DNA of 64,000 bases from NCBI GenBank assembly GCA_028554645.1, contig JAQOOI010000019.1, positions 1,550,001 through 1,614,000 on the forward strand. The letters are read 5' to 3'. This DNA comes from Omphalotus guepiniiformis. Its lineage: Eukaryota; Basidiomycota; Agaricomycetes; Agaricales; Omphalotaceae. The notes beneath the pieces were generated by a model, which searched no databases, was not told where the DNA came from, and worked only from the letters and a program-made list of their open reading frames with translations. The translations under genes were made by a program, and so were the position numbers. Shown piece after piece: positions 10,900-62,902 of this stretch (its first letter is position 1; each line of letters begins with the position of its first letter).

Positions 10900-12196
10900 A
10901 TGATATCTCCTCGTCCTCTTCTAGTTCTCTCGTTTCTGGCGCTGGCGCACTTCCAGTTTCAACTTGTCGTTGGCAAGTTGGTCAATGTTACTATTGACGA
11001 TACGAAAGCAGGACCCGATGGCTCTTTCATTACATACCTCGGTCCTTGGAATATCGGAACGGATTGTACTGGGTGTACTGCACACCCAGACCCCGCTCAG
11101 GTGTTGGATGGTACTTGGCACGATGTGACTGTACGCAATCATCTTTGTTGAATTGGTGTCAGGCAACGTCAGACCTCATCCGGCTCTCAATAGTTCGATC
11201 CAAGCAAAGGGAGCAAAAGTCTTCCATCCAAAGCAAGCGTAACATTTAACGGTAGGTGTCGTCTTTTGAACTCGTCGTTGTTCATGCTTTAAATACGTCT
11301 TTCCAGGCACCGCGGTTTATGTGTTCTGCGTTCTTGCACGAACTACGACAAAACCTGATGGGAATTCAGACATGTCCTTCTTCGTCGATGGGAATCTAAC
11401 GGGGATATTTGTAAAGAAAGCACCTGGTACAGCTGGGTACGACTACAACGTCTCTGTGTTCTCAACAACCTCGTTATCACCGGGTTTCCATAATTTGACA
11501 CTACAGAACGGTCGCGTCAACGGCAGCAAATCATTAGTGCTCCTTGACTCGATTGTCTATTCGTAGGTAGTACCCATATGTTTTGATGCAACTGTTAATG
11601 AGATTTTTGATAGATTTGACGATGGTGAAGTGGACTCTTTTCCCTCCTCCTCCTCCTTCTCCTCCTCCTCCTCCTTACCTTCTCCGGTACAAGCATCGAG
11701 CTCTGCTACTCCAACGGGTCTATCCGATGCTTTATCTTCGAGAAAGTCAGGTATCGTCGCCGCCGCCGTAGTCGTCCCGCTACTCGTCATCACGCTCGCC
11801 GTCGCAACAGTCATTCTCTGCTGCCGACGTCATCGCCGCCAGCAAAGCATCAACGATATTCAACACACCGTCATTGATCCCTTCATTCCGACTCCCACTG
11901 GAAGAGCTCGACCTCGTAATGTCAACAGTCCACCGGTCCGGGAGGATAAACGCCTCACTTACATAAACGCCTCTGGCTTGCCAGTAAGCGAATCCAATTT
12001 CGACACAACCTCATATGCGCCGAGTCTACCTCCTCTGAGGCGTGCAGTCCTACGATCAAAATCACTTGCATCGCGTTTGACTTCATCGAGTGGTGCTAGT
12101 GTGGGTTATCAAAAATATGCCAAGATGGACTATGCACAGCGTCAAAGCAGTTACACTGAAAGTACACGACTGTCAGATGAAGGTTCTATGTTGTAG
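10900..12196 (+). CDS. Serine-rich single-pass membrane protein, family copy A (truncated tail)
   Basis: Exons 10900-11130, 11194-11251, 11307-11562 and 11614-12196 give 375 residues. Order: signal peptide (to about residue 24); an ectodomain in two halves, with a Cys-containing first part (LVNVTIDD...IGTDCTGCTAHPDP) and a beta-rich second part (TAVYVFCVLARTT...YDYNVSVFSTTSLSP); a Ser-rich stalk; one membrane helix (SGIVAAAVVVPLLVITLAV) followed by a CCRRHRRQQ stop-transfer; then a cytoplasmic tail. The layout recalls fungal surface sensors such as the Mid2/Wsc type, but no function is known to me. The start is placed at 10900 to match the paralogues; an in-frame ATG lies at 10879. Unlike its relatives the reading frame stops before the PPxY tail. 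Confidence 0.75.
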
Positions 12197-13277: not shown

Positions 13278-14916
13278 ATGTTGCATCTACGATTGGTCCT
13301 GCTGGTCTGGTTTTTGGCTCTCTTTCGGTTTCGAATTGCATTTGGCGCGCTCATCAACGTTACCATCGACGATACGAACCCGTCTGTCAGTGGTTCCACG
13401 ATAACATATCTTCCTGCTGGTGCTTGGAATCTTGGAACGGATTGTAGTGGATGTGCTGCACATCCGAATGCCAGTCAGCTGTTTGATGGTACTTGGCACG
13501 ATGGAACAGTACGCAATAACCATTCTTTTTCCGAGCTATCCTTCGCAATAACGAGACTTGATTCGATTTTTAAAAGTTCAATCCTCTTCCTGGGAGCAAC
13601 AATGTCCCCAATCAGACTCTCACAGCAAGTGTAAGCTTCAATGGTACGTTGTCTTCGCTATCATCTGAGACTTTTCGATGTTGAGTTGAATCCAAACTCT
13701 TCAATGGTACCGCGGTTTATGTGTTCTGTGCCCTTGCACGAACTACCACCTCACCTTCTGGGAATTCAGACATGACCTTCATCATTGACGGAGAGTCAGT
13801 AGGGACTTTCGTCAAAGCGGCACCGGGTACAACCGGATACGACTACCATTTCCCAGTCTTTTCAACGACCTCACTACCACCGGGTAATCATACTCTGACG
13901 ATACAAAACGGTCACGTCAACGGCAATAAATCATTGATTATCCTCGACTCAATCGTCTATTCGTGCGTATGCCCTATCTGTCTCCGCACAAAGCTGTTCA
14001 TGAGATTATTGGTAGGTTTGACGATGGTGTATCAGACGTTCTTCCTTCCTCTTTTTACTCCTCCCTTCCTCCCCCTTCTTCAATATCAGCATCATCAAGT
14101 TCTGCTACAATATCTAGCCAGGCGGTTTCTTCATCTTCAAGCAAATTAAGCAAATCCGGTGTCGTGGCCGCTGCTGTGGTTATTCCGGTAGTCGTTGTCG
14201 GTCTCGCGATTATTGTAGCAGCCATTTTCTACTGTCGCCGTCGTCGTCGTCAGCGAATTCAGGAAGACATTCAACGCGCCGAGATAAATCCGTTCAACCC
14301 GTTCGACCCTCCCACTGCAACAGCTCGGTCTCAACCAGTCAGCGTCCAAGCGACTGATAGCTCACCCTATGTAAATACATCCGGCTTACCAGTAAGCGCT
14401 TCCAGCTTGAATACAGCAGCGGCACACGTTCATGCAAATGAACCTGCGCGGCTGGTACCCTTGAGGCGTACAATCACACCATCCGAATCCTCGTCGCATT
14501 TGACATTCAGCGGTGCTACTACCGGGCACGGGCAGAGTACTCAATCTGCCGATGGGGTGATCCATCACGCACAGGCTCAGCGGCTGCCTAGCCCAGGTTC
14601 CAATCCTCATCCTAGGCCTCAATTTGAAAACGGCGCATCACCTCGACTCCCAGATTCCGTCCAAGGACGATTCCGGAAAAAATTGATCCCTAGTGTTCCC
14701 ATGATAATCCATTCACATTCGATTTCGACCACTTTGGCTACTTCTCCTTCGTCATCGTCGCGATCGGGACTCGCTAACCCGGAGGCGGAGGAAGAGGAAG
14801 ACAAGTATCCTGATGAGGATCCTCCTGCGTACGAATTTTCTAGAGGGACTAGATCGTTTAAGGAATGGATGAGGGATCAGAAAACGCCTGGAATGTCTTG
14901 GCTGGTTAACCGATGA
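13278..14916 (+). CDS. Serine-rich single-pass membrane protein, family copy B
   Basis: Exons 13278-13508, 13577-13643, 13686-13962 and 14016-14916 give 491 residues, the longest copy. Signal peptide, two-part ectodomain, Ser-rich stalk, membrane helix GVVAAAVVIPVVVVGLAII, then CRRRRRQ and a tail with DEDPPAYEF about 30 residues before the end. PPAY fits PPxY, the ligand of WW domains such as those in Rsp5-type ubiquitin ligases, so tail-directed endocytosis is a reasonable inference. The intron 2 acceptor used by the paralogues (CTTCAG) is destroyed here; an upstream AG at 13684-13685 restores the frame and adds seven residues. Copy B lies about 1.1 kb downstream of copy A in tandem. Confidence 0.78.
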
Positions 14917-17024: not shown

Positions 17025-20000
17025 ATGAGAGATGCCGCTCGAGAGCCTTCAGAAACCACCATGGCACCTCTTGACACGAATTTTGGAGGGTATAGTCCTG
17101 ATGTCGTTGCTGGGATCGTAGAAGATTATTGTCCGCGTTATCGTGTCCTTGTAATGGGGAGGAGAAACTCGGGGAAGACGACTCTGCTGGAAAGAATGAC
17201 TCATAGCTCGGATGGGAAAGTTTTCATACATAACTCACTTGGAGATCTGGTAAACAAGCATTAGCGCTGAACTATTGTCTTTTTTCTGATATCTGTCTGA
17301 CTTACATAGGTTCAAGATCCTTCCTCGATCCTCCAACCATCTGTTGAAGTATGTTCTCTTCTTTCGCATGATGTTCTCTTCTTCTGCTGATCCACTGGCA
17401 CGGAAATGACTCGGCTGCAGCGTGGCCATAGTCATATAGAATATGAGATCACTTATCCAAGGTAAGTACTGCATCATTCAGTGCGTTCATGGTTTTCTAA
17501 TCTTGCTCTACCCAGCGAGCCCCGCTACGTCTTCCACGATTCGAGAGGGATGGAAGCCGGATCTCGTGACGAGCTCAAGAAACTAAGAGAGTTCATGGCT
17601 CAGAAACGAACCAAGCGCGCGCTTAAGGATCAGCTACATGTCATTTGGCAAGTCGATAGTGAGGTCCTAGCACTCATCACTTGCGCGAAGTACTCAACGA
17701 TTTGTGTTTTAGGTGTTGTCTTCCTGTAGACAATGATCGTCCTCTAGGCAAAGAAGAAATGTCGTTTTTTGAGCAGGGCACCGACGGCGGTAAGTGTGGT
17801 CAACCCTTTTTGATTTCTGCATGACTGATACCACCGGTACCTTCTAGTACCGGTAATCGCTATCTTCACCAAATTCGAATGGAGAATTACGAAGGCGTTC
17901 GATGAGCTAAGGGAGAGCGGCATGCGATACTTGGAAGCGAAGAGGGCCGCTCCGGATAAAGCTCGTGCTGATTTCGAGGCGCATATCCTACAAGAACGTC
18001 AAAGTCGTATGAAATACCCCCCAGCATGCTATGTTTATCTACAAAGTAAGCCTCCTGACGTGTAGTTTCTCTGTCTATTCGATTTGACTCTATTATGTTC
18101 GGGATCTCGCGTCTAGAATTGCACGAAGGAGGCGATTGTGAAGAATTGACGATTCAAACTCACCTCTTAGTCCAGCATCAAGTCAATGAACGTCTTTTCA
18201 CCAAGATTCAGGAAAATGGAATATGTATTTCGGTGAATGTGGCTCTTGTTAAGTGAGTACTTCCTGGCAAAGTAACCCGGGTTGTACGGCTGGCTCATCG
18301 GAGGGTACAAAAGTGCGATTGCATGCACTAAGAAACTGCATGTTGAAGAAAACGTGTCGGAACGGTTACTGAATTGGACCGCCCTTATACTATCTCTGTT
18401 TCCCCACTGGGTAGGTTTGCTCTTTCTGCGAGTTCGACGTACAACTTGCTGATGTGCCTGGTACTGGAATGTAATTATTCTTCATTCTCGGTTAAAAGTT
18501 GAATGAGACTTACTCGTCGTAAATTTCCATGCACGTTCCAATTTTCTTAGGAGGTACGTGTTCTTCCCTTACTTATGAGCTCTTAACGTCGCTAAAGCGT
18601 CCCCGAGTAGGATGTGAGCATGCTTTTTCCAATGTTTTCATCGATTTGAACGTTACTTACGTCTCTTCCCATGCGCTACATAGTATTTTGTGAGACTTCC
18701 CTTTAATGGTTCTTTGAATGCCTCAAGCCGATTTCTCATATGAATACTGTAACACCGGGTTAGCATGTAAGTATTTGCGGTCTGGCTCTCGCGAAGATAA
18801 GACACCTGACTATTTCAATTCACAGGAGGTGAGTTTGGCAACCCTTGGAGACGACTCACAGAATGCTGATGATCCTTGTTAGGCAGTGGTGAGTTTTCTT
18901 TGATATCTGTACATTACATGCGACGTGCTTATTCAAGTTGTGTGCTCTGTAGGTAGTGAGCAGCTGTTTCCATTCTACGTTCCACATCTCTGGTGCTAAT
19001 CACGTATTTCGATCCAACAGTGGGTAAGCGATACATCAAAGACATCTTAACCCACATCCTTCTCATGGAGGGAATACTTCACTACCTACTTTCCACCATA
19101 TAGCATGGCGTAAGTATCTCCGTTTCATATGGATCGCTTATTTAAATGCTTAAACGCCTCGGTATCAGTGGGTGAGCAATAGAATTTTCTCTCCATTCGG
19201 ACCGCAGTAACCCTGCGATTCTCGCTGTGGTCAATTCATAAAGGATTCGGTAAGTACCCTCACACCTGCGATGATTTCGTTGATACTGACTTTCACGCGA
19301 AAGTCGGTAAGCAGTAAGCTTTCCTCGACATCCAATCAGACTCATTGATACTGTAACCTCCGATGAAATTTCATTGGATCAGAAAGTGAGTAATTTCGAG
19401 TCACTCTCACGTCCTATTCCATGGGGTTGCTGATTGGCATGATTTGATACATCTTAGTATGTAAATCTCACATGCACTCTTTTTTGTCGTAACAGTACAT
19501 ACTTATTGTTCTCAAACTCAAGGGAGTAAGTGTATGAAAGCTCGGAATTATCCATCGTTGCTCACTTGGGGATGAATGCGACTTTCTTACATACTACAGT
19601 GGGTACGTAAATTCATATCGTCTCGAGTCTTCTATTGTATGCTGATGGTGAGTCTCACGTCTCGCTGGACAGGCTGTAAGTAACATTTCTGTCATTATTC
19701 CATGTCATTCGAGCATTCTATTGATGGAATACTGATTCACCCTCTTTGCCTTATCGTCATGATATGTATACACTAGCCTGTAAGTTCACTAAATGATTCA
19801 TGAACCTTTGCTAAATGTAGCACTGAGCAGCAGGTAGGCTGATAAGCCAGATCAAAGATTCGTATTTTGCATTAATTGCATGATTCCATCCATGTATTGC
19901 TTTTGCACAGATTGTAAGGCAACGATCTCTTGCTCCCGTATCTCTATGATGATACTTATCATCTTTGCTAACTTACAGCAGGTTGACGCTCTTTCTTCAT

Positions 20001-20528
20001 AACAGCCAACAAGGGACATGAACTGATCGTGACAAATTACCTAGGTTAACAATATACAACCCATTCAAGACATCACATCTGCAGTCTTATCATGGGTAAG
20101 TTGGTTATTCCGAAAAGACATTTCTTTCTTCAAGCAGCTTACCCTTCCTATTTAGTTGGATATCACCGTCGAGCGAGAACTCCAACTACTCACCTTCTTC
20201 GTCGGTCAGTGGGAATCGCGACTTACCAATCCCTCTGAATGCGAATATATGCTTCTATGTAGACGTGTTAATGATTGCTGAAGGCCTTTTCTGGGTCGGA
20301 GGTCGTTCCCCTTGGGAATACGTTAACACCATCACAAGCAGATACAGAATATCAAGTCAACGTCAATCTGTTTTCAACGTTACGAGGATGCTATATCGGG
20401 AGATGAACAGTCCACTACATAGAAATGCTCCATTCGGATGTGAGGAGCCGCTGAGTACCACTGGTTTGACAACTTTGGCGACAAAGTATGCGCCGTTGTT
20501 ATTGGAACATCGACTTCCTAGTCACTAG
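17025..20528 (+). CDS. Fungal G-domain GTPase, extremely intron-rich (about 32 exons)
   Basis: Exons 17025-17249, 17310-17348, 17421-17461, 17516-17647, 17713-17789, 17848-18045, 18117-18252 and 18314-18410 encode the G domain: P-loop GRRNSGKTT (G1), VFHDSRG (G3, DxxG) and VIAIFTKFE (G4 position, with E where NKxD has D). Then come 21 micro-exons (18551-19981), then 20045-20095, 20156-20204 and 20263-20528, which encode VDVLMIAEGLFWV and the C-terminus. All pieces join in frame to 461 residues. It resembles P-loop GTPases multiplied in Agaricomycetes; their role is unknown. The intron at 17648 has a GC donor (GCAAGT). A Met at 17061 has a better start context (ACCATGG) than 17025. The exons outside the train are well supported; the train is inferred from splice signals and frame. 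Confidence 0.72.
18551..19981 (+). other. Train of 21 phase-0 micro-exons (3 or 6 nt each)
   Basis: First bases of the micro-exons: 18551, 18611, 18684 (6 nt), 18764, 18826, 18883 (6 nt), 18953, 19021, 19104 (6 nt), 19169, 19244 (6 nt), 19304, 19383, 19458, 19523, 19600, 19673, 19777, 19831, 19911 and 19979; the rest are 3 nt. Each follows an AG and precedes GTAAG, GTGAG, GTACG or a close variant, and the introns between are 51-101 nt. None is a stop codon and together they add 25 residues. Two boundaries (18883 and 19831) have alternative acceptors, and the weak donor GTTGAC follows the last one. Confidence 0.62.
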
Positions 20529-28020: not shown

Positions 28021-29231
28021 GGGCCTGGCTTCATGGGAATACAGTTGACTTCGTATATGATTGGTATAGCGTTAGAGGTAGCTTAAGATTGGGTTTTAAC
28101 TTTGCGGCACTCACACGAGTAGTAAATACCGTACCGGTTGGGAGTTGGATTGAAACGAGGTTTCCCAAGGGAGGCCATGGAATGCAGATAACCTGAATAC
28201 AGAATGTAAAATGAGCTTGGACCAATGCGTATCTCCTAATCCTCCGTCAAAGTACTCGTCCAGGAAGAATTCTGCTGAATCATGAGATCTCAAGCCTGAC
28301 TCGTCGATTTTGAACTACGTCGTCAAACTCCAGAGCCTCTTGAAACACGGGAATAAAATCAAGTGGTATTGAGTGAGTATTCCCAGACCCCAGAGTTCAG
28401 TCGTACCATCTAATGGTCAACATCTCCCAATTCTTTATGAACAAATGCCGAATCTCCACCACCAATCGTGTCTCTCCCGTTGCGTTGCAGATTTGTAAGG
28501 TCCCAACATGTCTGCAGCACCAGCTAGATAGTTGCGAAGTCCATTCAATTTCGTTCGACTTTGTTGGCGGTGGAAGTATATGGAAAGGGAATCGAGCTTG
28601 CTGCAACGTAGACTCCCTTCTGCGTTGATTTCATGGTTCAGATTCTGTCGCGAACGCAACACATGGACTAAGTCGTCCTCGAAGATGGGAGCATATTCCC
28701 TAAGAATAATATATAAATTGCATGAAAAGTCTAGTACCGTCGAAGACGCCTCATGAGTGGTAACGCTATCGCAATACTAGACCATTTGGTCTCTGCAGGA
28801 GCTTGACTGTGGAACCAGGCCCCACATTCAACAACACACTCGTCCGGGAGAAAATGCACCAAGAACATTGCCACGTCCTCTTCTATTCGAAAGTAAAACG
28901 ACGTAGAGATGATCCGAAAAGTTGTGTCGGTGCTGGAGCATCATGAAACACCGTTTCAACTCTCTCTTCTCCAGGCGTCCAACCTCGATGCATGATACGG
29001 TGAATGAATTGGGGGCTTGCCCAGGAAGGTCAGACCGGTAATCGTGTTCCCAAGTAGTTCAATGAGAACCGTGAAGCGACACTCGAAACGGTGCTTGAAG
29101 TTCGAAGCGTCACTCCAGATAGATGTCCGACTCCCACTAATTTCCTCTTGTCTGGTCGCGACAGTGAACAAGGCATCGTCGCTTCTCTAGCGGACCCACA
29201 CGCAGGCCACCGAACCAGAAACCCCTCACAC
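28021..29231. other. Intergenic region, partly duplicated at 62.2-62.5 kb
   Basis: No supported gene. From about 28885 to 29231 the sequence is closely similar, in inverted orientation, to about 62234-62547, so it belongs to the MRD1 segmental duplication. The conserved part shows no convincing coding frame. Confidence 0.55.
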
Positions 29232-32200
29232 TTAATCCTCCTCCTCCTCTGCCTCCTCTCCAACACCACCAAAATCCAACTTCCTCTTCCTCCCAGGCAT
29301 CTCCTTCCCTCCAACACCAATCCCAACACCAACACCAGCCTTCTTTCTCATCTTCTCTAATTCCTCCTCACCACCTTCTTCCGCCGCCCACTCAAGCACC
29401 AAATGCCTTCCAAGCAAATGCGTATGCCTGAGCGCCTCATACGCGTTTTCTGCCTCCGTCCTGGAGACAAACTCGAGGAAGGCGAAACCACGTGTTCGAG
29501 AATCGAATTTTTTAGGTAGACGAACGGATTTGAGTTGGCCATGTGAGCTGTAGAAACAAGAAAACAGGTTATCCGAGAGTTCCTTCGGCAGAAGCCAAAA
29601 AGACAGGGAAAGAAGGACATACCCGAATAAATCGCGAATATCCTTCTTTGATGCCTCAAACGGCACATTCTTAACAATCATCTTTGTCGTTCGACTCTTC
29701 GATCCAACACCACCACCAGCCTTATCCTTCCCACTTTCCTCCTCCGCACCTCTCCCAGCGAACTTGATATGCAAAGCATGCCCATCAAGCACGAAACTCT
29801 GCATACTCTTCATCGCCTTCCTCGCACCCTCGGCATCCTTAAACCCAACAAACCCGTACCCCATGCTCAGTTTACCTCCAGGTTTCTTCGGATCTGGCTT
29901 TGTCTGTACACGCGCGAACGCAAACGAAGGGAGATTCCGGAAACTTTGGGTTAACCGTTCCGTCGTCGTAGCAAAGGCCAGATTCTTGACGAAGAGCGTC
30001 GTTCCAGATGACAATGCAGGCTCGTCCCCAGTCGTAGCATCAACATCAACTTCCTGCTCAGGAATCTTTACCGCATGCGCAGCCACCGAAGCCTGCACGA
30101 CAGGCTGTTCCTTCTTCGCCGCCGACGAAGAATCACCAGAGAAGATCCCCATAGGCGCTTTCTCTAGATAGACCACAGAGTTCCCTAACCTCCTATACGC
30201 TACGGCCTTGAACGCCTTCCCGGCCTCATCAGGTTTATCAAACTCCACCACAGCAATTGTACCCGCGGGTGGCAGAAGCACCCTGTTGACCTCTCCATGG
30301 GGCTCGAAGAGCTCCCTAATTTGGGCCTCGGATGTTCCGTAAGGGATGTTTTTCACAAGGATGACTGTATCAGAGCGCGCGGTGCGGGAGGAGGAGAAGG
30401 ACTCGAGGAGGACGCCGTTGGACTCGAGATAAGATTTTGTTTCATTGATGATGTGCGTTTCAGCGAGAGCGAGTTTTACAGCTGCCGATGTGGAAGAAGT
30501 GGGGTCGGAGGGGTCGGAGGATGAGTCGGGGTTGAGAATGGCGGACTTTGGTATACTTAGGCGTGAAGCGATAGAGGATGCAACTGCGTCGCTCTACAAA
30601 AAAATCATCAATGAGCATGCAATTCAATGCAGTTACACAAGCAAGCTTACTTACATTCATATACAACATAGCCCAATTAAACTCTTTCCCCGACACCGAC
30701 TTGAGCTTCGACTTCTTTTCCTCTTTCACGCTCTTCTTCCTGCCTCCCTCGCCCTCACCATTCCCGTCATCGGCACCTCTCCGATCAACCGCAGCAAGTA
30801 TGTGCAACAGCCGTCCCTGAAAAGACGTTTTATCCAAGGACTCGTACGCTGCTACGGCGTCGGACGGCTGAGCAAACGTTATGTATGCGAGGCCTTTAGG
30901 CTGCCGGGAGAGCGGGTCAAGTGGGATGTGTACCTGAAAAAAGCAGAGAAAAGGATTAGAATCACGAGAGTGAGACAGACGATAAAGGGAAAAAGAGAAG
31001 GGGGTTCAGAATAAAATTTCTACTATCGGTTTCCCTGAGGATCAACATTCCCGAAGGTCTGATGTCCCTAACTGGTTTTTCATCCGGGGAAGAGAGGGGA
31101 AAGGAAGGATTATTCACCTATAAGAAGGGAACAAGTCAGTACACGATTCTATGCAGCCAGTGGTAAACACAAGAAAAAATCAGAATAAAATTTCTACTAT
31201 CGGTTTCCCTGAGGATCAACATTCCCGAAGGTCTGATGTCCCTAACTAGTTTTTCATGCGAAGAAGAGGGTAAAAAAGAAGGGATGTTCACCTATAATAA
31301 GGGAACAGGTCAGTACATCATTCTCTGCAGCCAGTGGTAAACACAAGAAAAAATCAGAATAAAATTCTACTATCGGTTTCCCTGAGGATCAACATTCCCG
31401 CAGGTCTGATGTCCCTAACTAGTTTTTCATCTCGAAGGGATTTGCAAGAGATCATATAAAAAAGCCTTATTCACCTAACGAGACGGGTAAGAAATTGAGT
31501 CAGCTATCTTGAGGGGTAACGAAAAGGATGAAGAGAGAGAAAAGAGTTCAGAAAAAATTTCTACTATCGGAATTTCCCAAAGGAATCAACATCCTCCTTA
31601 AGAGTCTGATGTCCCTATTTAGTTTGTCATCGTTGAGCCCCGCCCGCCCCGTTTTTTGTTCACCAGCATCGAGGCGGAGAACCATTCGCATTGCCAAAGG
31701 CGTACGCGTAGAACCAAGTAAGAAACCCAAACTCACCTTTGATACTTGTCCATACTGACTAAAAAGCGCCTCCAACTCTGCCTCTGTGCATGAAAACGCG
31801 AGGTTACGGACGAACAACCTAGAAGTCTGTAAAATCGTCGTTCTCGTCGGATCCTGAGGTTCTTCTGGTTCGTTAGACGGTAACTAGAGGAAAGAGAAAA
31901 GATCTCTCGTTAACCCTCTATGCGGAGACGAGATTGAGCGTATGAACAACCCACATCCTTACGTCCATCCACTCCGTCTTCATCCTCATCATCAGATTGC
32001 TCAAAAACCTTTTCCGAACGCCCTTCTACTTCCACATTCTGCTTCATCCTCTTCCTCAACCAATCCATATCCGAAAGACCTTCCTCCCTCGGTCCCTCTT
32101 CCTCATCGTGCATGTCCTGGTCTTGGCTCTCGTCCACTTCCATGATTTTGGCTTCTTCTTGTAAAGGCGCATCTAATGTCTTTGCGCTCGTCGATGGCTG

Positions 32201-39000: not shown

Positions 39001-40408
39001 CTATACGTACGCAGGAGGAGGATCCTCCGAGTCAGGATACATATCGTTCGCCCCCGCACCGAGTCCCGCCGATGAGGATGAAGGAGAAGGGTGCACCAGT
39101 TCCTGGGGGGTTGATACATCAGAGCTCAAATTTTGTCGTCGTACCAGTCCCTTGACTGCGAGCAGCTGTGCATGATGGATTCCCCCATCGACAGATCGAC
39201 TTGGAGTACTCTTCCCGTTAACGCCACTCGACGAGGTTGAGGGGGTATTTGTACTCGTCAGGGACTCGACTGGTGCAGGTTCATTTGCATGAACGCGTGC
39301 CCGGGGGGCCGCTGTGTTCATACTGGAACCGCTTACTGGTAAGCTGGATGTGTTCAGATAGGATGAGCTATGAGTCGCTAGGACGCTAATAGGCTGAGAC
39401 CGAGCTATTCCAATAGGAGTGTTGAACGGATTGATCTTAATGCGGTCATCACGAATGTTTTGCTGACGACGTCGACGGCGACAGTAGAATATAGCAGCTA
39501 CAATCGCGAGACCAACAACGACCACCGGAACAACCACAGCAGCGGCCACAATACCGGATGTGCTCGTCTTGCTTGAAGATGGAGAGTCCAGCTGGCTAGA
39601 TGGTGATGTTGATACAGAAGAAGGGGAAGGAAGGGAAGAAGAGGAGTCCGATACACCATCATCAAACCTATCAATAATCTCATGAAACAGCTTTGTGCAG
39701 CGACAGATAGGACATACGTACGAATAGACGATCGAGTCAAGGAGAACCAATGATTTATTACCGCCGACGCGGCCATTTTGTATCGTCAGAGTATGATCAC
39801 CGGGTAATAGCGAGGTCGTTGAAAAGACAGAGACGTTATAATCGTACCCAGGTATACCCGGTGCTGCTTTGACGAACGTCCCCACAATCTCCCCGTCAAT
39901 GATAAAGGTCATGTCTGAATTCCCATCAGGTGAGGTGGTACTAGTCAACGCAAGGACACAAAACACATAAACTGCAGTACCTGAAGAGTTTCGGGTGAAT
40001 TCAGATTCAGTTCAACCTTCAAGAAAAGAACGCTACCATTGAAGGTTACGCTTGCCGTGAGGGTCTGATTGGGAAATTCTTGGCTTCCAAGGATAGAGTT
40101 GAACTTTTTTTTTTTTTTTTGAAAAGGAATCAAATCTTGGAACGCGAAGGGGACAGCAAAAGGAGATTATTGCGTACAGTTCCGTCGTGCCAAGTACCAT
40201 CGAATAGCTTAGAGGGGTCTAGGTGTGCAGTACATTCATCACAATCCGTTCCAGGATTCCATGCACCACTAGGAAGATACGTTATCGTGGAACCACCAAC
40301 TCCCGAGTTCGTATCATCGATGGTAACGTTAATGAGCGTGCCAAATGCAACTTGAAACGGACAGAGAACCAGAAACCAGACCAGAAGGACCAATTGTAGA
40401 TGCAGCAT
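39001..40408 (-). CDS. Serine-rich single-pass membrane protein, family copy C
   Basis: Minus-strand exons 40408-40178, 40103-40037, 39980-39722 and 39667-39001 give 407 residues with the same architecture and intron positions as copies A, B and D. Signal peptide MLHLQLVLLVWFLVL, ectodomain with LINVTIDD and GTDCDECTAHLDP, SDMTFIIDGEIVGTFVKAAPG, Ser-rich stalk, helix GIVAAAVVVPVVVVGLAIV, then CRRRRRQQ and a tail ending EDPPPAYV at the very C-terminus, a PPxY motif. Intron 3 is 54 nt and in frame, so it could be read through without a stop. The copy is inverted relative to the others and shares several hundred bp of upstream flank with copy E. Confidence 0.82.
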
Positions 40409-42767: not shown

Positions 42768-44329
42768 ATGCTATGTCTACAAGTGGTCCTGCTTGTCTGG
42801 TTGCTTTCTCGGTTTCACTTTGCGGCTGGCAAGCTTATTAATGTTACCATCGACGATACGAACCCGGGACCCAGTGGTTCGACGATAACGTATCTTCCTG
42901 ATGGGGCTTGGAATCTTGGAACGGATTGTAATGTATGTACTGCACATCCAGACCCCGCTCAGTTATTGGATGGTACTTGGCACGATGGAACGGTACGTAA
43001 TAACCTCCTTTTTTTGTCTTTCGCAGTTCTAAGATTTGATTCGTTCTCAAAAGTTCAATCCTCCTGGGATCAATAATTTCCCCAATCAGACCCTTACAGC
43101 AAGTGTAAGCTTTAATGGTATGTTTTCTTCGCAATCATCTCTAAGCTTTGTTGTTGTTGAAACTCTTCAGGGACTGCGGTTTATGTCTTCTGTGTCCTTG
43201 CACGAACTACCACCTCACCTGATTGGAATTCAGACATGACCTTCATCATTGACGGAGAGTCAGTGGGGACGTTCGTTAAAGCAGCACCCGGTACAACTGG
43301 GTATGACTACAACGTCTCAGTTTTCTCAACGACCTCGCTATCACCGGGTGCTCATACTTTATCGATACAAAATGGTCACGTCAACGGCAATACATCATTG
43401 GTGATTCTCGACTCGATTGTCTATTCGTACGTATGTCCTATCTGTCGATGCACAGAGATGTTCATGAGATAATTGATAGGTTTGATGATGGTGTATCAGA
43501 CTCTTCTTCCTCCCCCCCTTCTTCATCATCAACATCAGCATTTTCAAGTCCTACTACACAATCTAGCCTGTTGGATCCTTCATCTTCAAGCGAGACGAGC
43601 ACATCCGGTATCGTGACCGCTGCCAAAGACTCTTCTCCTTCCTCTTCTTCCCCCCTCTCTTCCTCCTCTTCTCCCCTCCCTTCCTCCTCTTCTCCCCTCC
43701 CTTCCTCCTCTTCCCCCCTCCCTTCCCCCTTTTCAGTTTCAACATCAGCATCATCAAGTTCTACCACACCGGTTAGCCTGTCGGATCCTTCATCCTCAAG
43801 CAAGAAAAGCAAATCCGGTATCGTGGCCGCTGCCGTGGTTGTTCCGGTAGTCGTCGTCGGGCTTGCTGTCGTAGCAGCCATATTCTACTGTCGCCGTCGA
43901 CGTCGCCAGCAAACCATTCACTATAACTGCAGCAATGTTGATCTGCTCGACCCTCCTATCGGAACAACTCGGGACGAGCCTGTTAGCATCCTAGCGACTA
44001 ATGGCTCATCCTATCATCCAACTCCCCTAATGACCCTAATGAGTACAATAACACCATCAACTTCGTCGTATTTGACGTCCAGCGGCGTCAACGGGAAGAG
44101 TACTCTAGGTCGAACTGTCGATGGGGGGATCCATTATGCACAGCCGCTCGTAGTTAAGGGACTGATAGGACAGGATTTGAGTCCTGGTGTATCAGGACCG
44201 GGGCTGGTACCACATTCTATGGATACTCCTCTTTCGTCCTCGTCGGGACTTGTTAGCGCGCCGGGGACCGTAGTTAATGTAGAAGGTGATGTGTACGTTG
44301 ATGAGGATCCTCCTCCTGCGTATGTATAG
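42768..44329 (+). CDS. Serine-rich single-pass membrane protein, family copy D
   Basis: Exons 42768-42992, 43054-43117, 43171-43426 and 43480-44329 give 464 residues. Signal peptide MLCLQVVLLVWLL, ectodomain (LINVTIDDTNPGPSGSTITY, GTDCNVCTAHPDP, then SDMTFIIDGESVGTF), a doubled Ser/Pro stalk, membrane helix GIVAAAVVVPVVVVGLAVV, CRRRRRQQ and a tail ending DEDPPPAYV (PPxY). The stalk holds an extra block, DPSSSSETSTSGIVTAA, which repeats the normal pre-membrane sequence and the first residues of the helix. A 21 bp repeat coding SSSSPLP follows, so the stalk has grown by internal duplication. All splice sites are canonical. Confidence 0.82.
43660..43722 (+). repeat. 21 bp minisatellite in the copy D stalk
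   Basis: Three near-identical 21 bp pyrimidine-only units (43660, 43681, 43702), flanked by degenerate ones. They encode a Ser/Pro/Leu heptad and keep frame. Confidence 0.8.
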
Positions 44330-58257: not shown

Positions 58258-59692
58258 ATGCTGCGTCTACCATTGGTCCTGTTTGTCTGGTCTCTGGCAC
58301 TCTTTCGGGTTGAATTTGCAGTTGGCACCCTCGTTAACTTTACCATCGACGATACGAACCCGGGACCCGGTGGTTCCACGATAACATATCTTCCTGACGG
58401 TGCGTGGAATATTGGACAGGATTGCAGTGGATGTTTTGCACAACCAGACCCCGCTCAGCTATTGGATGGTACTTGGCATGATGGGACTGTACGCAATAAC
58501 CTCCTTTTTTTTGTTCTTCGCAGTTTCAATTTGATTCGTTCTTAAAAGTTCAATCCGGTTCTTAGCTATTTCCCCAATCAGACCCTCACAGCAAGTGTAA
58601 GTTTCAATGGTACGTTTTCTTTGCAATCATCTCTAAACCTTTCTTGACATTAAATTGAATCCACTACACTCTTCAGGTACTGCAGTCTATGTGTTCTGTG
58701 TCCTTGCACGAACTACCATTTCACCTGATGGGGATTCAGACATGACTTTCTTCATTGACGGAGAGAAAGTGGGGAAGTTTTTCCAAAAAGCACCGGGTAC
58801 AACTGGGTACGACTACAATGTCTCTGTCTTCTCAACGACCTCGCTATCACCGGCAATTCATACTCTGACAATACAAGCTGGCAGCCTTCATGGCAATGTA
58901 TCATTGATTTTACTCGACTCGATCGTCTATTCGTACGTATTCCCTATCTGTCTCTATACAAAGCTGTTCATGAGATTCTTAATAGGTCAGATGATGGTGT
59001 ATCCGACTCTTCTCCTCCGTCCGTCCCTCCCTCTTCTTCAGTATCAACATCACCATCATCAAGTTCTGCTACACCGAATAGCCTGTCGGACCCTTCATCT
59101 TCAAGCAAGAAAAGCAAATCCGGTATCGTGGCCGCCGTGGTTGTCCCGGTAGTCGTTGTCGGTCTAGTTATCGTAGCAGCCATATTCTTCCGTCGTCGTC
59201 GTCAGCAAATCATTCATGATGACGGCACCACCACTATCGATTCGCCTCCCATTGAAACAGCTCGGTACGTGCCTTGTTAGCAGCTTATCCTATCTAAATA
59301 CATCCAACTTACCAGTACGTGCTTCCAGTATAAGCACAGCGGCACACGTTCATGCAAATGGACCTGCAATGGTTCCCGTGATGAGTACAATCACACCATC
59401 ACCCTCGTCGCATTTGACATTCAGCGGCGCTAACGGGCAGAGTATGCCACGTACTCGAAATCGATTTGCAGATGGGGTGATCCATCGTGTACAACAGTCG
59501 CTCGTGGCAGTCAAGAGAATGGTACTACGACAAAACATCCCTCAGCCTGATGTATCAACCCCGGTGTTGGTGCATCCTATGATGCCAGTGACTACTACTC
59601 CTCCGTCCTCATCAGGACTCGTTGGTGCGGGGGCAATCACTTTAGAGGAAGATATTACGTACCCTGAGGAGGATCCTCCTGCATACGTATAG
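58258..59692 (+). pseudogene. Serine-rich membrane protein family copy E, frameshifted
   Basis: Exons 58258-58488, 58549-58609, 58677-58932 and from 58986 match the family: signal peptide MLRLPLVLFVWSLALF, LVNFTIDDTNPGPGGSTITY, SDMTFFIDGEKVGKFF, stalk, helix and RRRRQ. The frame then meets TAG at 59278. Compared with copy D (CCTGTTAGC) the sequence reads CCTTGTTAGC, one extra T. In the shifted frame the tail resumes (SYLNTSNLPVRA...) and runs to EEDPPAYV at 59692. As it stands the product would be truncated just after the membrane helix and lose the PPxY tail. A GTACGT donor nearby cannot restore the frame with any AG I see. It could still encode a tail-less protein. Confidence 0.72.
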
Positions 59693-60371: not shown

Positions 60372-62233
60372 CAATAACGATTTTACAGACTTCTAGGTCG
60401 TTTGTGCGTAACCTAAACCTCGCGTTTCGTTTTCGTGCACAGAGGCGGAGTTGGAGGAGTTTTCAGCCAGTATGGACAAGTATCAACTGAGGTGAGTTCG
60501 GTTTTCTTATTTGTTTCTACGTATGCGCCTTTGGCGATGCGATTGCGTGAACGAAAAAATGAGGCAGGCGGGGGCTTAACGATGATTTTATTATGAACCT
60601 CCTTCTTTTTCCCTACCGTCCTTCTTTCGTGATCCTAATTGTCTTGCCTCCTCATCCCAGATACACATCCCACTTGACTTTCTTTCCTGCCAGATAAATG
60701 CGCATATACTACCTTCGGTTAGCCGTCCAACCCCGTAGCAGCGTACGAGTCCTTGGACAAAACGTCTTTTCAGTGATTGTACTTGCTGCGGTTGATCGGA
60801 GAGGTGTTGATGACGGGAATGGAGAGGGCGAGAGGCAGGAAGAAGAGCGTGGAAGTCGGGGAAAGAGTTTAATTGGACTATTGTGTAAGGATGTAAGTGT
60901 GTTTGCTTGTGTAACTGCGTTGAATTGCTTGCTCATTGAAAATTCTATCTGTAGACCGACGCAGTAGCATCGTCTATTGCTTCACGCCTAAGTAGACCAG
61001 AGGCCACCGTTCTCAATCCCGACTCATCCTCCGACCCCTCCGACCCCACTTCTTCCACATCGGCAGCTGTAAAACTCCTCTCGCTGAAACGCACAATGCA
61101 CATTATCTCAAGTCTAACGGCGTCCTCCCGCACCGCGCGCTCTGATACAGTCATCCTTGTATCCCTTACGGAACATCCGAGGCCGAGAGGTCAACAGGGT
61201 GCTTTTTCCACCAGCAGGTACAATTGCTGTGGTGGATAAACCTGATGAGGCCGGGGAGGCATTCAGGGCTGTAGCGTGAAGGAGGTTGGGGAACTCTGTG
61301 GTCTATCTGGAGAAAGAGCCTATTGGGATTTTCTCGTGATTCTTCGTCGGCAGCAAAGAAGGATCAGCCTGTCGTGCAGGGTTCGGTGGTTCAGTGGTTG
61401 GGCATGCGGTCAATATTCTTGGACAGGAAGCTGATGCCGATGCTACGACTGGGGACGAGCCTGCCTTGTCATTTGGAGCGACGCTCTTCGTCAAGAATTG
61501 GCTTTTGCTACGACGACAGACCGGTTAACCCAGAGTTTCCGGAAATTCCCTTCGTTTGCGTTCGCGCGTGTACAGACAAGCCAGATCCGAAGAAGCCTGG
61601 GGGTAAACTGAGCATGGGGTACGGGTTCGTTGGATTCAAGGATGCCGAGGGTGCGAGGAAGGCGATGAAGAGTATGCAGAGTTTCGTGCTTGATGGGCAT
61701 CCTTTTGCATATCAAGTTTGCTGGGAGAGGTGCGGAAGAGGAAAGTGGGAAGGATAAGGCTGGTGGTGGTGTTGGATCGAAGAGTCGAACGACAAGGATG
61801 ATTGTCAAGAATGTGCCGTTTGAGGCATCTAAGAAGGATATTCGCGATTTATTCGGGTATGTCCTTTTGGGCTTCCGCCAAAGGAACTCTCGGGTAACCT
61901 ATATTCTCGTTTTATAGCTCACATGGCCAACTTAAATCCGTTCGTCTACCTAAAAAATCCGACTCTCGAACACGCGGTTTCGCCTTCCTCGAGTTTGTCT
62001 CTAGAGCGGAGGCAGAGAACGCGTATGAGGCGCTCAGGCATACGCATTTGCTTGGAAGGCATTTGGTGCTTGAGTGGGCAGCGGAAGAAGGGGGTGAGGA
62101 GGAATTAGAGAAGATGAGAAAGAAGGCTGGTGTTGGGGTTGAGGTTGGGGTTGGAGGGAAGGAGATGCCTGGGAGGAAGAGGAAGTTGGATTTTGGTGGT
62201 GTTGGAGAGGGGGAGGAGGAGGAGGAGGATTAA
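60372..62233 (+). pseudogene. Degenerate partial copy of MRD1
   Basis: Matches MRD1 from within RRM2 (CGATTTTACAGACTTCTAGG at about 60380) to the stop codon, in inverted orientation to the intact gene. The RRM2 intron is present as one unit (60492-60660). Disabling changes include an altered exon end (ATCAACTGAG), deletions near 61160-61240, a stop in place of a Tyr codon at about 61278 (GCGTGAAGG for GCGTATAGG) and frameshifts near 61330-61600. The last third (RTTRMIVKNVPFEASKKDI, PGRKRKLDFGGVGE) is well preserved, so the duplication is fairly recent. Confidence 0.85.
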
Positions 62234-62902
62234 GTGTGACCGATGTCTGGTTCGGTGGCCTGCGTGAGGGTCCATTAGAGAAGCGACGATGCCTTGTTCA
62301 CTACGGAGTCAGATATCCATCTGGAGTGACGCTTCAAACTACAAGCACCGTTTCGAGTCTCGCTTCATGGTGACCACTTGGGAACGGGATTACCGGTCTG
62401 ACCCTCCTGGGCAAGCCCCCAATTCATTCACCGTAACATGCGTCGAGGTTTGACGCCTGGAGAAGTGGAAGTTGAAACGGTGTTTCGTGATGCTCCAGCA
62501 CCGACACAACTTTTCGGATCGTCTCAACGTCGTTTTACTTTCGAATGCCTCTTCTTTTGAAACGGTCGTTGGATCGTCGGTCTGGAAACTATATGTGACC
62601 GAGCCATATTGGAATATGGTTGATCTGTTCTCTACTGGCAATACAATGCACTGAATCTGTGTGAGTATGAGCAAGAGGGTGTCAGGACGCTACTGTAAAT
62701 ATAAGTCCTAGCAGTGGAGGACGCTCCACGTGAACGTCCTGTGACTGGCGCTGGGAAAATAAAGTCTTTTTAAAGATTTCCAGCTTTGCCGTTCGGCGCT
62801 CGTTGCTCTTTGCAAACTACTTCGAAGAAGTTGCAGACGACGAACGCATCGCTGGAGGATTGCTTTCACGTTACTCCTTTTCTGTGCAACCACATCTCCA
62901 AA
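62234..62902. other. Duplicated MRD1 3' flank, then intergenic region
   Basis: Similarity to 28885-29231 (inverted) continues to about 62547. Beyond lies unique DNA and the promoter of the F-box gene. Confidence 0.6.

Follow-up and report, generated by a model that had tools for sequence, protein, structure and literature searches.

A probable array of 20 or 21 one- and two-codon exons in a G-domain GTPase gene of Omphalotus guepiniiformis

We analysed a window of 64,000 nucleotides (nt) from the agaricomycete Omphalotus guepiniiformis (GenBank assembly GCA_028554645.1, contig JAQOOI010000019.1, positions 1,550,001 to 1,614,000), part of one of the 80 contigs of a 42.5-Mb assembly. On the forward strand of the window, at 17025–20528, lies a GTPase gene whose spliced reading has 32 exons and encodes 461 amino acids (aa) with no internal stop codon. 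Between exon 8 and exon 30 this reading runs through 21 pieces of 3 or 6 nt, which very probably form a real array of 20 or 21 exons of one or two codons each. We infer from the sequence that the array is spliced in vivo and that its inclusion is probably constitutive. It contributes 75 nt to a coding sequence of 1386 nt (stop codon included). If spliced as read, a single transcript would shed 22 introns to join these 75 nt, mostly as single codons.

Upstream of the array, the gene model comprises exon 1 (17025–17249), exon 2 (17310–17348), exon 3 (17421–17461), exon 4 (17516–17647), exon 5 (17713–17789), exon 6 (17848–18045), exon 7 (18117–18252) and exon 8 (18314–18410), the last ending in LLNWTALILSLFPHW; homologues of this part (17025–18410) were found with expectation values (E) as low as 6e-114. 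For exon 4, a GT donor at 17659 shifted the frame; the GC donor at 17648 was preferred, as it brings back the IW-CLPVDN reading of the family, and intron 17648–17712 is of the GC–AG type (GCAAGT...TTTTAG). A 58-nt intron at 20205–20262 (GTCAGT...TAG) removes a frame shift from the last exon. Downstream of the array, exon 30 (20045–20095), exon 31 (20156–20204) and exon 32 (20263–20528, closing with the stop codon) encode VNNIQPIQDITSAVLSW, then LDITVERELQLLTFFVD and on to the stop; in these C-terminal exons LQLL, DVL, IAE and FW are shared with the homologues P0001 and P0002. On one strand or the other, ten open frames of 40–67 aa overlap the array, one of them extending from exon 8.

The P-loop motif reads GxxxxGK[ST], and the predicted protein carries GRRNSGKT. 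There were 27 matches at E ≤ 0.001, many annotated as G domain-containing. Against MMR_HSR1, the predicted protein scored E = 0.0048, under the curated cut-off, and P0001 scored 1.8e-5, over it. By its P-loop and its homology the gene is an agaricomycete G-domain GTPase, and its nearest sequence matches are in Marasmius, Rhodocollybia and Collybiopsis. A fold search with a structural model of P0001 put it in the neighbourhood of G-domain proteins, immunity-related GTPases among them (query-length template-modelling score at most 0.41 among the best 50 rows), and says little on the array.

Exon 8 ends in FPHW at 18410 and exon 30 resumes with VNNIQPIQDI at 20045. The original prediction had placed between them 21 pieces of the form AG–(3 or 6 nt)–GT, all multiples of three in phase 0 and free of stops. 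Every one of these is present (20 of 21 with a strict donor, as defined below), and their 25 codons leave the 461-aa reading intact. In order, and all on the forward strand, micro-exons 1 to 7 are GAG (E, 18551–18553), GAT (D, 18611–18613), TATTTT (YF, 18684–18689), CAT (H, 18764–18766), GAG (E, 18826–18828), GCAGTG (AV, 18883–18888) and GTA (V, 18953–18955); micro-exons 8 to 14 are TGG (W, 19021–19023), CATGGC (HG, 19104–19109), TGG (W, 19169–19171), GATTCG (DS, 19244–19249), TCG (S, 19304–19306), AAA (K, 19383–19385) and TAT (Y, 19458–19460); and micro-exons 15 to 21 are GGA (G, 19523–19525), TGG (W, 19600–19602), GCT (A, 19673–19675), CCT (P, 19777–19779), CAG (Q, 19831–19833), ATT (I, 19911–19913) and CAG (Q, 19979–19981), the last being the weakest. 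Seventeen pieces have 3 nt and four have 6 nt, and translated in order they read EDYFHEAVVWHGWDSSKYGWAPQIQ. The predicted tryptic peptide that follows the lysine encoded by micro-exon 13 (YGWAPQIQVNNIQPIQDITSAVLSWLDITVER) covers eight micro-exons.

Two boundaries had been called ambiguous. At 18883 the 6-nt reading GCAGTG has a better donor (GTGAGT) than the 3-nt alternative GCA (GTGGTG), and at 19831 the piece can be read as 3 nt, as 6 nt (CAGCAG) or as a zero-length junction; we add 18953 as a further possible zero-length junction. The first of the 22 array introns, intron 8 (18411–18550, 140 nt, GTAGGT...TAG, with CTNAY 38 nt from the acceptor), had been suspected of hiding one more micro-exon. 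No credible one was found in it by eye, and P0001 requires none.

Apart from this first intron, the array introns are 51–101 nt long (median of all 22, 67.5 nt); the range overlaps that of the gene's nine other introns (54–72 nt), the array introns tending to be longer. The claim that many carry a branch site of their own was borne out: 19 of the 22 array introns and 8 of the 9 others have CTNAY at 8–45 nt upstream of the acceptor. Branch sites played no part in picking the pieces, and shuffled array introns gave a mean of 8.4 and a maximum of 16 (3000 shuffles). With YTNAY in the same range the count rises to 21 of 22. Between the array introns and the nine others there is little difference in T content (0.333 vs 0.338) or in mean donor quality (3.2 vs 3.4, out of 4). 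Two traits of spliceosomal micro-exons (exons of up to 30 nt between canonical introns), a canonical acceptor and donor on the two sides and flanking branch sites, are found here; for a third, inclusion in mature mRNA, the evidence is the P0001 peptide. All 22 array introns are in phase 0, whereas the nine others are divided three to each phase; with whole-codon pieces and a uniform phase, skipping of any piece would therefore keep the frame.

To count such sites, we used a strict pattern, HAG followed by N3 or N6 and then by GTAAG, GTGAG, GTACG, GTAAA or GTAGG, which fits every piece except micro-exon 21. The array has 20 strict sites, against a mean of 0.40 and a maximum of 4 in 5000 dinucleotide shuffles. 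Sites spaced by 45–105 nt form a chain of 20 in the array. In 3000 shuffles no chain exceeded 2, and outside the array the window has chains of up to 3 on the forward strand and up to 2 on the reverse; sampling a further 190 kb of the genome on both strands (19 stretches of 10 kb, not a census) gave a longest chain of 2. A YAG acceptor combined with a looser donor pattern gave 17 sites in the array, or 10.4 per kb, compared with 0.54–0.61 per kb elsewhere. When exon length was not preset, strict donors lay 3 nt past the acceptor at 16 sites and 6 nt past it at 4, with no other distance from 0 to 15 represented more than twice, over a background of about 0.2–0.4 sites per 1634 nt for each distance.

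With the spacing rule dropped, up to 7 strict sites per 1.6-kb stretch occur elsewhere on the forward strand, and at most 5 on the reverse strand, antisense to the array. The seven-site cluster, from about 31153, was rejected as a second array: it lies mostly in or beside a tandem repeat with a 174-nt unit and forms no long chain. That repeat (31006–31526) has about 2.5–3 copies, some of them mimicking micro-exon sites. Across 18448–20196 the reverse strand carries six strict sites antisense to the array, above the window average and without a long chain, and these are perhaps the mere complement of the array's splice signals.

The residues encoded by the array have a counterpart in P0001, a 372-residue, intron-less open reading frame on a 1435-nt contig from the source 'lgn', which we take to be an assembly of public sequencing runs. 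P0001 aligns across residues 29–384 of the predicted protein, uninterrupted by introns, and because it lacks them it is most simply a transcript. From FPYW to VVSW it has 44 residues (NNFFHMERHYEVHWDWIEGWTPFLKLSESDQEIVKTISRAVVSW), where the present gene has 42 from FPHW to VLSW. Its FFH stands where the array reads YFH (FF opposite micro-exon 3 and the same H as micro-exon 4), and its GWTP lies as far past FPYW as the array's GWAP past FPHW, sharing the G, W and P of micro-exons 15, 16 and 18. An ungapped comparison gives 5 identities among the 25 residues (F, H, G, W and P). Alignment of the 25 residues with an intron-poor homologue, a check that had been proposed, gave a match that fits in place and is modest in extent (8 of 25 identical with gaps, the W of micro-exon 10 meeting a W of P0001 only in this gapped form). 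Aligned globally with BLOSUM62, the two 25-residue stretches score 25, a value reached by 18 of 20000 residue shuffles, and without gaps they score 18, reached by 51 of 20000.

To survey other relatives, we combined two protein searches, which returned 27 and 30 proteins, 33 of them distinct. The FPxW end of exon 8 is attained by 12 (as FPHC in P0018), the other 21 stopping earlier. Nine of the 11 that remain without P0001 end 8–49 residues past FPxW, namely P0003, P0004 and P0006 (Rhodocollybia), P0005 (Marasmius tenuissimus), P0013 (Stygiomarasmius), P0016 (Dendrothele), P0018 (Phlegmacium), and P0020 and P0023 (Mycena), and their local alignments to the prediction stop no more than 5 residues beyond it. 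In 8 of the 11, by a count made post hoc, a valine follows within two residues of FPxW, and valine has a GTN codon, as at a donor. This fits gene models that read on into the GT donor, with predictors failing at the same architecture, and the array, if spliced as read, could account for the shared stopping point of this family's models in several fungi. P0002 (Marasmius crinis-equi) and P0032 (Collybiopsis confluens) reach the ...SW exon end (HSW/LSW) 18 and 27 residues on, compared with 42 here, or 24 and 15 residues fewer. By eye, the P0002 stretch would belong to the next exon.

Tentatively, and with more doubt than confidence, the array may be regarded as an old, conserved architecture of the GTPase family in Agaricales, in which the coding sequence past FPxW would likewise be split into pieces of one or two codons, and misannotated at the same place, in the relatives, by which we mean Marasmius, Rhodocollybia, Stygiomarasmius, Dendrothele, Mycena and Phlegmacium. 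Its common phase 0 would then come from frame-safe growth, in which new one-codon exons arose within a phase-0 intron, or an intron-plus-codon unit was duplicated, and not from separate insertions. Searches of the O. guepiniiformis genome with P0018, P0002 and the predicted protein gave, among the best candidates scored, this gene and one distant paralogue. The paralogue (contig C77, near 1898911) has ordinary-sized exons, as judged by eye, at the place equivalent to the array.

That the pieces are real one- and two-codon exons of the GTPase gene, as originally proposed, is well supported by the branch sites, the P0001 peptide and the spacing of 3 or 6 nt. Several observations weigh on the other side. 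Micro-exon 21 has the poor donor GTTGAC and may be no exon at all, and CTNAY is absent from the tested range in 3 of the 22 array introns. The peptide match to P0001 is short at either count; the last 8 residues of P0001 diverge, and its status as a transcript is read from the missing introns. For P0018, P0020 and P0023 the local alignments end about 30 residues before FPH, which was matched by eye. The aligner matches the array with the P0002 stretch, and one reading of P0002 and P0032 is that their species lack the segment or can do without it. Finally, the C-terminal part used alone as a query returned no protein, in a search insensitive enough to miss P0001 too.

Introns of 51–101 nt with full signals are normal substrates for intron definition in fungi. 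Each short intron of the array would be recognized across itself, through its own donor, branch site and acceptor, and neighbouring introns would be removed at different times, in succession, since a 3-nt exon is unlikely to have a spliceosome on each side simultaneously. Missing an exon would remove one or two residues but leave the frame intact, a tolerance that may explain how the array grew and would also permit regulated variants. The original prediction had argued for sequential removal, with each junction rebuilding the next donor. Its first part is reasonable, in that simultaneous splicing across a 3-nt exon is unlikely, a point also argued for the constitutive 1-nt exon of Arabidopsis APC11, for which intron definition combined with one-after-another splicing is proposed (PMC4674806). 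The second part does not follow, since 19 of the 21 donors take their exon bases from the micro-exon itself. No fixed order and no rebuilt donor would be needed, and any order would suffice so long as no two neighbours are spliced at the same time. The 25 residues themselves would probably serve as a linker within the helical C-terminal part.

The same tolerance would suit a regulated combinatorial cassette, in which leaving out different subsets of the micro-exons would yield many variants of the 25-residue segment, as has been suggested for the micro-exon genes of schistosomes. This is compatible with a spliced array, and we consider it unlikely, if clearly the best of the alternatives. All 21 pieces keep the frame in every combination, and in the P0001 model the array segment (residues 294–318) is the longest run with a predicted local distance difference test score (pLDDT) below 50, which would fit a variable linker. 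However, there is no sign of skipping, the distance from FPxW to GW-P is the same as in P0001, and the low pLDDT may merely reflect a model alignment of 27 rows in which P0001 alone has the whole segment. The segment overlaps poorly supported helices at 290–302 and 308–313 and is flanked by helices at 276–288 and 321–336. The pLDDT lends weak support to a flexible linker.

A second alternative is a single 1.6-kb phase-0 intron at 18411–20044, its micro-exon sites being decoys or relics that are normally skipped. Skipping would keep the frame, both ends being in phase 0, and the genome-derived models P0002 and P0032 pass this point with their fewer residues. We nevertheless find it improbable: the gene's other introns are merely 54–72 nt long, fitting residues are present in P0001, and the donors and branch sites are kept about as well as those of the other introns, which would be unexpected if they were unused.

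More improbable still is a recent origin of the introns by copying of a single mobile intron (introner-like element) or by tandem duplication, which would itself be compatible with splicing. Uniform phase and similar lengths would follow from the copying of a unit, and the mean pairwise score of the array introns exceeds that of mononucleotide shuffles (13.2 vs 12.5, standard deviation 0.14), an excess that a shared branch motif or composition could cause. Yet introner-like introns are similar copies, and the array introns are not evidently so: a repeat search found no evident copying among them, the longest direct repeat being 15 nt, and a DNA search of the assembly found no second match to the array DNA. 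An old, eroded duplication may be the source of the array introns. An Rfam search gave a single match, far under threshold. A chance pile-up of AG...GT motifs within a long intron can be given practically no weight, for although single sites occur at about 0.4–0.5 per kb elsewhere and short clusters exist (the seven near 31153, the five antisense), it is contradicted by the shuffles, the rest of the window, the 190-kb sample, the spacing spectrum and the branch sites.

A spliced array can be set beside several known systems, as they are described in the consulted parts of the reports; micro-exons of 1–6 nt, three in a row in RPS24, the schistosome and aphid genes and recursive splicing are already known. 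Its exons are too short for exon definition and escape annotation, like the APC11 exon and other plant micro-exons, but the plant examples are single, or once two adjacent, whereas here 20–21 are consecutive (PMC4674806, PMC8831610). Human RPS24 also has micro-exons in a row, and both reports on it use the terms '3-bp exon' and 'consecutive microexons', although these are three, alternatively spliced and in an animal, compared with about twenty here (PMC11162997, PMC12686416). Schistosome micro-exon genes share very small symmetric exons that can be skipped with the frame kept, but there such exons make up most of the coding region of secreted or gland-associated products with reported alternative splicing (PMC4350168); in the GTPase gene, 21 of 21 pieces are symmetric and the array accounts for 75 of 1386 nt. 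The aphid bicycle and megacycle genes have many small internal exons, nearly all in a single phase and more than 100 in one gene, but the phase is 2, the protein family is different and no one-codon runs are reported in the parts consulted (PMC9168663).

At the ratchet points of recursive splicing, too, a donor comes soon after an acceptor, but acceptor and donor are juxtaposed there, whereas here 3 or 6 bases stand between them, except possibly at 2 of 21 (PMC8605326, PMC6110457). A donor starting from the first base past the acceptor, a zero-length junction, can be read only at 18953 and at 19831/19834. Among fungi, micro-exons are described in the P450 genes of Phanerochaete chrysosporium (down to 6 bp; PMC1184071) and in Trichoderma Xlr2 (PMC11121469), but no long consecutive series in the parts of these reports consulted. 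A literature search covering mostly titles and abstract openings turned up no report of about 20 consecutive one-codon exons, nor of similar fungal arrays. If the array is spliced as read, practically no exon would be needed for fungal intron-definition splicing. The gene would make extreme demands on the splicing machinery and would let the order and fidelity with which adjacent introns are spliced be studied in a natural setting, and it would bear on the origin of introns and of one-codon exons, with 22 introns sharing phase 0.

Elsewhere in the window, 28885–30598 and 60950–62546 contain collinear inverted repeat pieces, 92–97% complementary and about 30 kb apart, which are perhaps two copies of a mobile element. 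A dispersed family of 300-nt repeats lies at 11306–11605, 13706–14005, 43170–43469 and 58676–58975, with an inverted member at 39686–39940; the direct copies are 71–86% identical to the reference copy, and additional blocks of similar sequence adjoin them.

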